Source of the DNA: a virus
Length of the DNA stretch: 31,618 bases
Virus record (IMG/VR): IMGVR_UViG_3300030202_002409
Coordinates: 1 to 31,618 of that record
Direction: 5' to 3' (one strand)
Shown piece after piece: positions 28,671 to 31,417 of the stretch. Positions within the stretch are counted from its first letter, which is position 1. Every line of letters starts with the position of its first letter. The notes beneath the pieces are model-generated. The model saw only the letters and a program-made list of their open reading frames with translations. It had not been told where the DNA came from and ran no database searches. Made by a program: the position numbers and the translations under genes.

Positions 28671-29480
28671 ATGGCGGTATTAAAGGAAAAGCCGAAAGTC
28701 GGCGGGAGTCATTTCTACGACCTCGCCGGCAAAGCCTGCCATTCGCAGGTCGGTAAGAACGGACTGGAGCGTAATACTACTTTGCGCGATGCCAGAAAGC
28801 TAAATCTGTTTCCAAGCGTTACCGGAATAACCGGCATCTTCGCAAAGCCGGGGCTGGACCGCTGGAAGCAGAACGAGCTTTGCCGCATAGCCTTCGAGCT
28901 TGAGCCGATTGACGGCGAGAGTCTTGAAGACTTTACGGATCGATGCCTCGTAGCGCACCAGAAGCCGAGAGATACGGCGGCAGACTTTGGGAGCGAGGTA
29001 CATGATGCGATAGAGCATTATTTCGATGGCAAGCCTATCCCCGATCACCTGCTGGAGTACGTTCAGCCGGCATTCGATTGGAAGCAGAAAAACCAGTTGG
29101 AGTTCATCGAGCGGGAGAAGATTCTCGTAAATCCTCTACACGGGTTCGCCGGAATGTGCGACATCGTTGGTAAAGGCCCGGATGGTCAGCAGTTCATAAT
29201 CGACTGGAAAACCCGCAAGACCAAGCCGAAGGTCAAAGTAACTTCGTATGACTTTCAGGTCCACCAGATAGCGGCCTACGGCGGGACTTACTTCGGCGAG
29301 AAGGAAATTCTTGAGGGTAGGGTATATGGAGCTAACTGCTACATCAGCTCGACCGAGCCGGGACGCTTTGAGGTAATTAGCTATTCGCCGGAAGAGCTGG
29401 CCGAGGCGTGGAAAGCCTTTGTGGCCGCCTGCGAAATCTGGCGGAGCTTGAAGAAGTACGATCCGAGGCCGGGACAGTGA
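28671..29480 (+). CDS. RecB/Cas4-like PD-(D/E)XK exonuclease
   Basis: 269 residues. Motif residues in order: FGSEVHDAIEHYF with His111; HGFAGMCDIVG with Asp164; FIIDWKTRK with Asp178 and Lys180 (D-x-K); and HQIAAY with Gln199 and Tyr203 (QxxxY). This is the full RecB/Cas4/lambda-exonuclease signature. It lacks the four-cysteine iron-sulfur cluster of true Cas4. It would resect DNA ends for phage recombination together with the SSB-like protein and resolvase, or degrade host DNA. Ribosome site AGGGAGG; stop overlaps the next GTG. Confidence 0.88.
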   Translation: MAVLKEKPKVGGSHFYDLAGKACHSQVGKNGLERNTTLRDARKLNLFPSVTGITGIFAKPGLDRWKQNELCRIAFELEPIDGESLEDFTDRCLVAHQKPRDTAADFGSEVHDAIEHYFDGKPIPDHLLEYVQPAFDWKQKNQLEFIEREKILVNPLHGFAGMCDIVGKGPDGQQFIIDWKTRKTKPKVKVTSYDFQVHQIAAYGGTYFGEKEILEGRVYGANCYISSTEPGRFEVISYSPEELAEAWKAFVAACEIWRSLKKYDPRPGQ

Positions 29481-29683
29481 AGCGAATCCGATCAAAGAAC
29501 TTCGAGGCCATTGGCTTCGACGGGGAGAAGGTGGACTCCAAGGCTACGATCACGCTCTGGGTAACGCCGGAGTTCAAGCGGAAGCTCCGCATTCTGGCGG
29601 CGAACTCCGGGGATGGCTATTCGGTCAGCCAGTACTTGCGTCTGCTTTGCAAGGAGAAGTTCGAGGAGTTGGATGAAGTTTAA
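29477..29683 (+). CDS. Small ribbon-helix-helix DNA-binding protein
   Basis: 68 residues from the GTG at 29477 (GTGA overlap with the exonuclease stop). Residues about 23-64 follow the RHH (Arc/CopG) form: a strand ATITLWVTPEF, helix KRKLRILAANSG, then SVSQYLRLLCKEKF as the second helix. RHH proteins bind DNA as dimers and often repress their own operon. A role controlling the methyltransferase, whose start lies inside its last codons, is plausible. Confidence 0.72.
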   Translation: MKRIRSKNFEAIGFDGEKVDSKATITLWVTPEFKRKLRILAANSGDGYSVSQYLRLLCKEKFEELDEV

Positions 29684-31208
29684 CGTAATAGAAATTTGCG
29701 CCGGAGTAGGCGGCTTTGGACTGGGCTTCGAGCAGTACGGGCAGGTACTGGCCGCAGTCGAATGGGACAAGGCCGCCGCCGGCGTTTACAAATACAATAA
29801 TCCGGAAGTCGAAATGTTCTGCGATCTGACCGAGGTACGGGCTACGGACCTGCCTTGGGATGCGGACGATCTAGTCATATGTGGCGGAACTCCCTGCCAA
29901 GCCTTCTCAGTTGCCGGCCTGCGCGGCTCTCTTTCGGACGACCGGGGCAATCTCGCCTTAACCTTTAATAACTTATGTAATGCAATCGACGATCTTCGAC
30001 TTAATGCTGGAAAAGAACCGGCTATCATCATCTGGGAAAACGTCTGCGGAGCAATCAACACCGACGACAACGCATTTGGATGTATCTTGGCAGGAATGGC
30101 TGGAAGTGATGCCCCCCTCGTTCCAGTCGGAGAGCAGCGCTGGACAAACGCAGGTGTGGTTGTTGGCCCGAGACGAGCCGTCTCTTTCCGGGTACTCGAC
30201 TCCCAATACTTCGGAGTGGCCCAACGCAGGCGAAGAGTCTTTGCCGTTGCTATCGGAGGTGCTAGAAAGTGGGCCGCACCTGAAGCGCTTGTTCCTCAGC
30301 AAAAAAGCCTGCCTCGGAATCCTAAGAAGAGCGAAGGCTCGGTCGAAGGTTCTCCCGGAAATGCTGGATCGAGCGCTACGGGAGCAGGCTTCGGAAAGTA
30401 CGAGGAAGGAGTCGGAACGCTCCGAAGCCAAGAAGGAGACTTAGGCGGCGGAAGCGAGACGCTGGCGGTAGACGTCTACAACGGAGAAATTACCGGCGAG
30501 ACAACTGTAACTGTTACGACGAAAACGGGAGGAGCAGACCAGAGCGGGCCGAAGTTGTTAGTCCCTAAGCAACAAGGAATAGCTTTTGAGCCTCGCAGTG
30601 CCGACGGTGAACCACGCATCGCTGGCGACATCCATAAAGTGGTTTGCCCGACTCTGAACTGCATGTCTGGCGGTCAACGTGAGCCTGCCGTAGTCTCATG
30701 GAACGGCGACGTAACGCCCAAAGCCTCCGAGGACGTGAGCGTTACGCTTCGTAGCCAGCAGGGCGGCGAGGGCGTTGGCGTAGCGACTTATGAGTGGCAT
30801 AATCAAGATAGCCGAATACGTGAACAGCAACAGGCGTCTACTTTATCTTGTAACGCAGGAGGAAAGGAAGGGAATCTGGTACATCATGTGGCCCCTGCGT
30901 TAAGCGCGTCGAACAACCCATCCCGATCCCCACAGTCGAGTGAAGTGACTCAACAAATCAAAGCAGTATATGACGCGACTCTAACGGTTCGCCGGCTCTC
31001 CAGCGTAGAATGCATGAGGCTTCAGGGCTGGCCGGATACTCATTGCGACTTCAAGATGGAGCTGGAGCCGGACGGCAATCGCTGGAAGGCCGCGGGCAAG
31101 GTGGTAAAGCAGGCCGAAGGGCCGAAGTACAAGCAGGCGGGCAACGGCGTGACGGCCAACGTGGCGGCCTACATAGCAGGGAAACTGATGGATGCTCTGT
31201 CGAAGTGA
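29673..31208 (+). CDS. dcm: DNA cytosine-C5 methyltransferase, phage type
   Basis: 511 residues from the ATG at 29673; a frame open to 29613 overlaps the RHH gene. Motif I EICAGVGGFGLGFE (about 6-19), motif IV GGTPCQAFSVAG with catalytic Cys75, motif VI IIWENVCG with Glu122, motif VIII GVAQRRRRVF (about 181-190), motif IX SVECMRLQGWP (about 444-454), motif X QAGNGVTANVAAYIAG (about 488-503). A long target-recognition region (about 195-435) has four loose repeats starting TL(R/N/S)(S/C), at T249, T327, T358 and T390. It would methylate cytosine to shield phage DNA from host restriction; no partner restriction gene is visible. A second gene is embedded in its +1 frame. Confidence 0.95.
   Translation: MKFNVIEICAGVGGFGLGFEQYGQVLAAVEWDKAAAGVYKYNNPEVEMFCDLTEVRATDLPWDADDLVICGGTPCQAFSVAGLRGSLSDDRGNLALTFNNLCNAIDDLRLNAGKEPAIIIWENVCGAINTDDNAFGCILAGMAGSDAPLVPVGEQRWTNAGVVVGPRRAVSFRVLDSQYFGVAQRRRRVFAVAIGGARKWAAPEALVPQQKSLPRNPKKSEGSVEGSPGNAGSSATGAGFGKYEEGVGTLRSQEGDLGGGSETLAVDVYNGEITGETTVTVTTKTGGADQSGPKLLVPKQQGIAFEPRSADGEPRIAGDIHKVVCPTLNCMSGGQREPAVVSWNGDVTPKASEDVSVTLRSQQGGEGVGVATYEWHNQDSRIREQQQASTLSCNAGGKEGNLVHHVAPALSASNNPSRSPQSSEVTQQIKAVYDATLTVRRLSSVECMRLQGWPDTHCDFKMELEPDGNRWKAAGKVVKQAEGPKYKQAGNGVTANVAAYIAGKLMDALSK
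29980..30444 (+). CDS. Overlapping phage protein encoded in the +1 frame of dcm (ILRR family)
   Basis: 154 residues, wholly inside dcm. The order of elements, KNRLSSSGKTSAEQS, THLDVSWQEWLEVMPPSF, GQTQVWLLARDEPS, YSTPNTSEWPNAGEE, SLPLLSEVLESG, RLFLSKKACLGILRRAKARS and KVLPEMLDRAL, matches a phage protein family I recognise (typical core: NTSEW, SLSxxLE, YLSxxACxGILRRAxxRGKxLPxxL). Its dcm-frame counterparts (NAFGCILAGMAG, QRRRRVF) are also conserved, so one DNA stretch appears to code twice. The C-terminal Cys-Arg-Arg helix and Leu-rich segment suggest a small helical protein; the function is unknown. Start codon is uncertain. Confidence 0.72.
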   Translation: MQSTIFDLMLEKNRLSSSGKTSAEQSTPTTTHLDVSWQEWLEVMPPSFQSESSAGQTQVWLLARDEPSLSGYSTPNTSEWPNAGEESLPLLSEVLESGPHLKRLFLSKKACLGILRRAKARSKVLPEMLDRALREQASESTRKESERSEAKKET

Positions 31209-31417
31209 AGAAGAAAGTATTCAGCCTGAAAACCGAGGCCAAGGGAGCCATCGCCTCGCACAAGCCGGGCCATCCTTCCAGCATCGAATGGACTCCCGGC
31301 CCGCGAATGTCGGCCTCGGACAAGATAAAATTTAACTGGTGCGCCGAGCAGTTCTTTGTCCGGCGAGGACTTCAGCCCCCTTGGGCGAGAAAGGAATTAA
31401 AAATAAATGCAAAATGA
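31205..31417 (+). CDS. Small basic hypothetical protein
   Basis: 70 residues from a GTG that overlaps the dcm stop (GTGA). KKKVFSLKTEAKGAIASHKP is basic; WTPGPRMSASDKIKFNWCAE then FFVRRGLQPPWARKEL follow. The N-terminus carries a KxxF motif and the end is Lys/Trp-rich. No family recognised. Coupled translation with dcm suggests a linked role, perhaps in DNA binding. Confidence 0.6.
   Translation: MKKKVFSLKTEAKGAIASHKPGHPSSIEWTPGPRMSASDKIKFNWCAEQFFVRRGLQPPWARKELKINAK

Follow-up and report, generated by a model that had tools for sequence, protein, structure and literature searches.

In phage lambda, a double-stranded DNA phage, Rz1 is nested in the +1 frame of Rz and is served by an internal ribosome-binding site, and the two products act together in lysis. 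In Escherichia coli, the repair endonuclease gene vsr overlaps the 3' end of dcm by a few codons in the +1 register. Overlapping regulator and endonuclease genes with separate starts have been described in a restriction-modification system, namely pvuIIC and pvuIIR (PMC2997769). In addition, an out-of-frame HNH endonuclease lies within phage methylase genes in the case of ShiLan, where it is an inserted homing element that is absent from many methylases (PMC11855218). In the genomes of cells and double-stranded DNA phages, it is rare for a long gene to be fully nested in another on the same strand and deeply conserved, and standard annotation removes such genes because only one gene is kept per stretch. 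Here, we describe a small gene nested within a phage cytosine methyltransferase gene. We consider it very probable that this gene is real, that its translation begins at an internal start and that it is subject to selection; no expression data are available.

The window, that is, the whole stretch of DNA that was analyzed, comprises a complete virus record (31,618 bases), which contains genes for phage head and tail proteins, an exonuclease and a Holliday resolvase. The methyltransferase gene (29673-31208) is located near its right end, and the following features were recognized:

29663..29668, plus strand: GAGGAG, Shine-Dalgarno sequence of the methyltransferase gene, 4 bases 5' of ATG 29673
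29673..31208, plus strand: cytosine-5 DNA methyltransferase of the dcm type, 511 aa, main frame (ATG 29673, stop 31206-31208), with motifs I (EICAGVGGFGLG), IV (GGTPCQAFS), VI (ENV), VIII (QRRRRVF), IX (RRLSSVECMRLQGWPD) and X (GNGVTANV)
29980..30444, plus strand: nested gene, 154 aa, +1 frame, wholly within the methyltransferase gene, supported by family conservation

The methyltransferase matches PF00145 (E=2.8e-39) and phrog_116 (E=8.5e-64), and it meets the criteria for a C5 cytosine methyltransferase, having the catalytic PCQ, ENV and QRRRR as well as the C-terminal motifs IX and X. A preliminary description of this DNA had claimed a 154-residue +1 open reading frame spanning motifs VI (ENV) and VIII (QRRRR), and we recovered it at exactly the same coordinates (ATG 29980, final codon ending at 30441, TAG 30442-30444, 154 codons, plus strand). 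When the methyltransferase protein and its codon usage were kept fixed, positions 29980-30441 were stop-free in the +1 frame in only 4 of 20,000 synonymous shuffles. The length of the frame by itself is modest evidence, as the longest +1 run in the shuffles was up to 199 codons. What we regard as decisive is family conservation, as inferred from sequence comparison.

Several other open reading frames were noticed around this locus. An antisense frame of 152 aa with a TTG start is open over 29973-30431 (minus strand) and probably owes its existence to the doubly constrained composition. Upstream, a 68-aa frame with a GTG start (29477-29683; TITLWVTPEFKRKLRILAANSGDGYSVSQYLRLLCKEKF) overlaps the exonuclease stop (GTGA) and ends just within the dcm start; judging from its residues it looks like a regulator of the ribbon-helix-helix type, and a PHROG search with the longer frame of this region gave no match. 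Downstream, a 70-aa frame with a GTG start (31205-31417) has a four-base overlap with the dcm stop (GTGA), and the 135-aa frame listed at 31010-31417 is probably its over-extended form.

Using tblastn, we identified relatives of the 154-aa nested product in 110 phage records, and 156 records were found with a more typical member of the family. The corresponding phages infect Vibrio, Escherichia (P1 and P7), Salmonella, Pseudomonas, Caulobacter, Sinorhizobium, Streptococcus, Ruminococcus, Mycobacterium and Akkermansia, and bacterial contigs extend the family to Acidobacteria, Planctomycetes and Verrucomicrobia. The ILRR(A)xxRxKxLP motif named in the preliminary description proved to be real and is part of the C-terminal family consensus, (Y/F)(F/Y)LSxKACxGILRRAxxRGKxLPxxLxxAL. 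The nested frame lay in the +1 frame of a dcm ORF in all 341 family loci retrieved by profile search, as it did in the first eight loci opened and in 16/16 matches of the whole-genome search. Standalone copies of the family, which had been expected to exist, were not found: none occurred among the 341 loci, the 16 further genome matches and the phage records opened, and every relative found sits inside a dcm ORF.

The reverse selection gave the same picture. When loci were picked for their similarity to three different dcm anchors, the nested frame was kept in 237 of 237, and the random +1 stops in homologous dcm genes that would have refuted the proposal were not seen. It should be noted that these dcm queries carried the nested frame themselves, so this result shows only that the frame has not been lost in the clade or in its neighbourhood; moreover, the contigs partly overlap the earlier sets and locus counts are not phylogenetically independent. 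Four candidates for loss of the nested frame were rejected, since profile search detected it in phiCbK (E=3.8e-14), CcrColossus (3.6e-21), Rctr41k (1.1e-33) and Javan584 (1.4e-11, shortened). In Vibrio phage 1.270.B, dcm and the nested gene are truncated together. On the other hand, 30 high-scoring canonical PF00145 controls included no gene with the family and none with a stop-free +1 frame at this place, and in 249 genomes of one phylum PF00145 was present in 137 and the nested family in only 5. Therefore, the nested gene marks a phage-type branch of dcm.

In certain giant phages of Caulobacter and Brevundimonas (loci L628, L633, L093 and L100), we observed a hairpin of retained length that lacks the KACxGILRRA signature. 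These sequences have kept a (Y/F)xLxxxxxxxLLxNAxxAGRxLS-like pattern and represent a diverged branch of the family.

The dmt gene of the model phage P1 also carries the nested frame; its +1 frame is predicted to give a peptide such as YFLSSKACAGILR (translation not shown). This frame was found in 493 of 5,426 complete E. coli genomes (with P1-like plasmids), and in the E. coli entries shown the annotation names only the enclosing methyltransferase.

To what extent the +1 reading is determined by the methyltransferase itself was addressed by synonymous shuffling (50 shuffles per locus). The real family score was reached in 0 of 336 loci, with a median of 110.5 bits for the real sequences vs 20.7 bits for the shuffled ones; nine profile seeds are contained in this set and do not drive the outcome. 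The median score of the shuffles, together with the fact that certain recurrent +1 residues are dictated by motif VIII alone, would be compatible with the +1 ORF being a mere side effect of codon bias and of the conservation of the dcm protein. Such an origin is refuted by the shuffle test, and it is also opposed by the canonical dcm genes without a stop-free +1 frame and by the stronger conservation of the nested frame past motif VIII; we see practically no chance that it is correct.

Divergence at fourfold sites, counted only at codons with an identical residue and identical first two bases, was 0.165 in the overlap vs 0.366 upstream and 0.481 downstream, and in 125 of 127 disjoint pairs the overlap had the lower value. 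Synonymous change in dcm is thus roughly halved or lower over the overlap, as the preliminary description had predicted. This reduction was found despite a higher divergence of dcm residues in the overlap (0.194) than upstream (0.131). We further counted substitutions in four classes, each being synonymous or nonsynonymous in each of both frames. For the +1 frame, dSN/dSS in the overlap was 0.27 (0.17-0.46) and 0.20 (0.16-0.25), with intervals excluding 1, vs 0.98 and 0.95 downstream of the overlap. The dcm-frame dNS/dSS in the overlap was close to these values (0.25 and 0.20), which implies similar purifying selection on both frames. Synonymous constraint by itself would also fit conservation at the DNA or RNA level, i.e. 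a structured or regulatory element without any protein. In this case, however, the constraint tracks the +1 codons (dSN/dSS 0.2-0.3 and dNN/dNS 0.24-0.30 in the overlap), the +1 translation aligns across phyla and insertions preserve its frame, so that we consider an element of this kind very improbable.

The better conserved frame changes along the overlap, which corresponds to two parts of the nested product:

29980..30243, plus strand: nested N-terminal part, residues 1-88, acidic, 35% Ser+Thr+Pro, predicted to be disordered
30244..30402, plus strand: nested C-terminal domain, residues about 89-141, LSEVLE...FLSKKACLGILRRAKARSKVLPEMLDRAL, predicted basic helical hairpin

Over the first part, which includes motifs VI and VIII, the methyltransferase frame is the better conserved one (0.70-0.76 around these motifs vs 0.39-0.44 for the nested frame). 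Over the second part, where the methyltransferase has the spacer after motif VIII, it is the nested frame that is better conserved, with values over the last 45 columns of 0.83 for ACxGILRRA vs 0.40 for dcm, and of 0.61 for KRGKELPxxL of the nested frame vs 0.25 for the dcm frame. In the window, the dcm residues of these 45 columns are no longer consensus-like, whereas the nested residues still are. Judging from these alignments, the spacer after motif VIII is probably conserved for the nested protein and not for the enzyme. Taken together, conservation beyond what the first frame forces, reduced synonymous change and purifying selection on the second frame satisfy those criteria for a functional overlapping gene pair that rest on sequence conservation; a further criterion, start signals of the second frame, is fulfilled across relatives and only weakly at ATG 29980 of the window. 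Frame retention and reduced synonymous change strongly support the initial proposal of an old, conserved dual-coding arrangement, and sequence comparison shows that, in phages from at least six bacterial phyla, the +1 frame codes for protein and is subject to purifying selection.

In the preliminary description, it had been unclear how ribosomes get to the inner start. The features of the window that bear on this question are the following:

29979..29984, plus strand: Asn-Ala codons AAT GCA of the methyltransferase, which supply the nested ATG 29980-29982
30109..30111, plus strand: second ATG in the nested frame, with a better-placed Shine-Dalgarno sequence (GGAAGTG) in front of it

The relatives use an internal ATG as their start, which is made up of the end of an Asn or Asp codon and the G that follows it. 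This codon (AAT or GAT) ended in T in all 36 relatives with a matching peptide pattern, and elsewhere Asn and Asp codons end in T about half the time. Methyltransferase codons also provide the Shine-Dalgarno sequence, which is GAAATGAGG in the 'EMR' type (Arg AGG in 59 of 66 vs 14% background) and AAGGAG in the 'FKEW' type (Lys AAG in 40 of 40 vs 48% background). The best Shine-Dalgarno energy was -5.9 in the real sequences vs -4.2 in shuffled ones, and it was stronger than in the shuffles in 277 of 333 loci. Although these counts are not independent events because the sets are related by descent, the presence of a Shine-Dalgarno sequence and an ATG within the methyltransferase codons of relatives makes internal initiation likely. 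The question is thus largely answered for the relatives. In the window, ATG 29980 has the conserved position and only an A/T-rich leader without a clear Shine-Dalgarno sequence. ATG 30109 is a possible alternative start there, and the predicted 111-aa product would retain the whole conserved domain.

A different route to the +1 frame would be programmed ribosomal frameshifting, by which the N-terminal half of the methyltransferase would be fused to the nested domain. The +1 ORF is often open for some codons upstream of the start, the dcm N-terminal half runs into or adjoins the nested frame in contig L085 and in Curvibacter phage PCA1, and the BFVD entry A0A8S5LZA8, which is named methyltransferase, matches the nested model weakly. 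Nevertheless, these two odd records resemble single indels, in many families a +1 stop lies 1-8 codons upstream of the start and they have no visible slippery site in common, and the choice of start codon and Shine-Dalgarno sequence within dcm codons is not in line with frameshifting. We consider this route less likely, indeed quite unlikely, but it is not excluded.

Disrupted forms of the locus were also observed. In the Omega-type mycobacteriophages Thibault and Schatzie (L089, 2372-2614; L090, 2369-2614), an HNH element splits both dcm and the nested gene, and the C-terminal domain of the latter is preserved as a short ORF (gp104 in Thibault) that starts within the final stretch of the HNH gene. 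In Curvibacter phage PCA1 (L632, about 1500-2818), dcm is broken between motifs VI and VIII and the nested C-terminal domain is open; this may reflect an indel in the record or a decaying dcm.

With regard to the product, helices of the predicted hairpin comprise residues 108-120 and 127-152. Residues 89-154 of the window protein are basic (pI 10.0), and the C-terminal hairpin of the family has a median pI of 9.4 and a net charge of +3. AlphaFold2 models of two distant members, the window protein and a Ruminococcus-type member, show a helical hairpin with pLDDT 93-97 that follows a disordered N-terminal part (whole-protein pTM is low, 0.36 and 0.35). PDB searches by sequence and by fold detected no convincing relative, and assignment of a function from structure was dropped for lack of a usable PDB match. 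The best viral structural match is Thibault gp104 (UniProt G1FGG9). Nested proteins match phrog_16143 ('DNA methyltransferase', 139 aa) with E down to 2.5e-10; the match is clear for members L094, L098, L261 and L092, and the window protein is directly below reach and is linked to phrog_16143 only via the family alignment.

Based on these data, positions 29980-30444 very probably encode two proteins, the cytosine-5 methyltransferase in the main frame and a separate small +1 protein made from the same mRNA by ribosomes starting at the internal ATG. The small protein would combine a flexible N-terminal part rich in Ser, Thr and Pro with a basic helical hairpin at the C terminus. It might work with its methyltransferase during infection, binding either the enzyme or its DNA, and such binding would set the activity, target choice or expression of the methyltransferase. 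That the product acts with the enzyme, which had been suggested at the outset, is the most likely way of working if one considers that this methyltransferase type always keeps the nested frame and that relatives are never found elsewhere; losing the nested frame would cost the dcm protein nothing because silent changes can stop it. However, part of this association is forced by the overlap itself. A role as partner or regulator of the methyltransferase via the basic hairpin is therefore inferred from association only, and it remains a possibility that we do not hold with confidence.

An independent role is about as likely, in which the nested gene is equally real and its product, for instance a small DNA-binding regulator or a protein acting against host restriction or other defences, merely shares its DNA with the methyltransferase. 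The basic C-terminal hairpin is what would be expected of a nucleic-acid-binding module, and in Thibault the C-terminal domain persists with a start as gp104 even though the HNH insertion splits the nested frame. On the other hand, duplication outside dcm or loss from dcm would be expected for an independent gene, and neither was seen in the 341 and 237 loci; nor did Pfam, NCBIfam, PADLOC and PDB provide a convincing match of the nested protein to a regulator, anti-restriction or defence protein. The broadest form of the partner reading, that a large clade of phage dcm is obligately a two-protein system whose +1 frame encodes a dedicated enzyme-controlling partner, fixed in phages from six or more bacterial phyla (P1 among these phages) and overlooked until now, is put forward as a tentative hypothesis that we would not yet favor.

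So far, the family is known only as PHROG 16143, which is named DNA methyltransferase, and from scattered uncharacterized entries. Among the features listed under the tblastn matches, nearly all are methyltransferases or unnamed hypothetical proteins. We also observed that PHROG 16143 bears its methyltransferase name in spite of being the nested-frame family, and that the dcm genes of gut Firmicutes phages (L098, L099 and L095) are left as 'hypothetical protein'; the overlap, together with the long variable region, is the probable reason for these annotation errors. No description of the nested gene was found in the open PubMed Central literature searched, although one could exist outside it, and there is no mention of it in the available portions of a frame-transition survey (PMC3711429) and a survey of virus overlaps (PMC8903798). 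The gene is annotated almost nowhere, yet the enzyme with which it is associated is very common in phages, and the gene itself is present in the model phage P1 and in roughly one of every eleven complete E. coli genomes. Mutants in such methyltransferase genes may hit two proteins at once, and P1 permits direct testing by silent mutations.

Compared with what has been described, phrog_16143 (judging from the clear matches of several members) and G1FGG9 belong to the same family as the nested proteins; they are unrecognized fragments or members that were named for the enclosing gene or as 'uncharacterized', and the overlap was not noted. The pvuIIC-pvuIIR pair resembles this locus in having overlapping genes of a methylation system with separate translation starts, but it includes no gene nested in a methyltransferase and shares no family with the nested protein. 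Like Rz/Rz1, the locus has a complete small gene inside another in the +1 frame with an internal ribosome-binding site; Rz and Rz1 are lysis proteins, whereas here the host gene encodes a DNA methyltransferase, the product is unrelated and no partner activity has been shown. The dcm-vsr pair likewise combines a cytosine methyltransferase gene with a functionally linked gene that overlaps it in the +1 register, but vsr overlaps just a few codons at the 3' end, and here a different protein is encoded by a gene fully nested in the middle of the methyltransferase gene. Finally, ShiLan is a further case of a second frame inside phage methylase genes that codes for a protein. A homing insertion of this type was rejected as the origin of the nested gene: a Pfam search found no HNH or any other Pfam domain in the nested proteins, the criteria of an HNH motif and of an insertion relative to uninvaded methylases were not fulfilled, and the overlap covers methyltransferase motifs VI and VIII. 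While the ShiLan gene is an inserted element, the gene described here uses native motifs of the methyltransferase.
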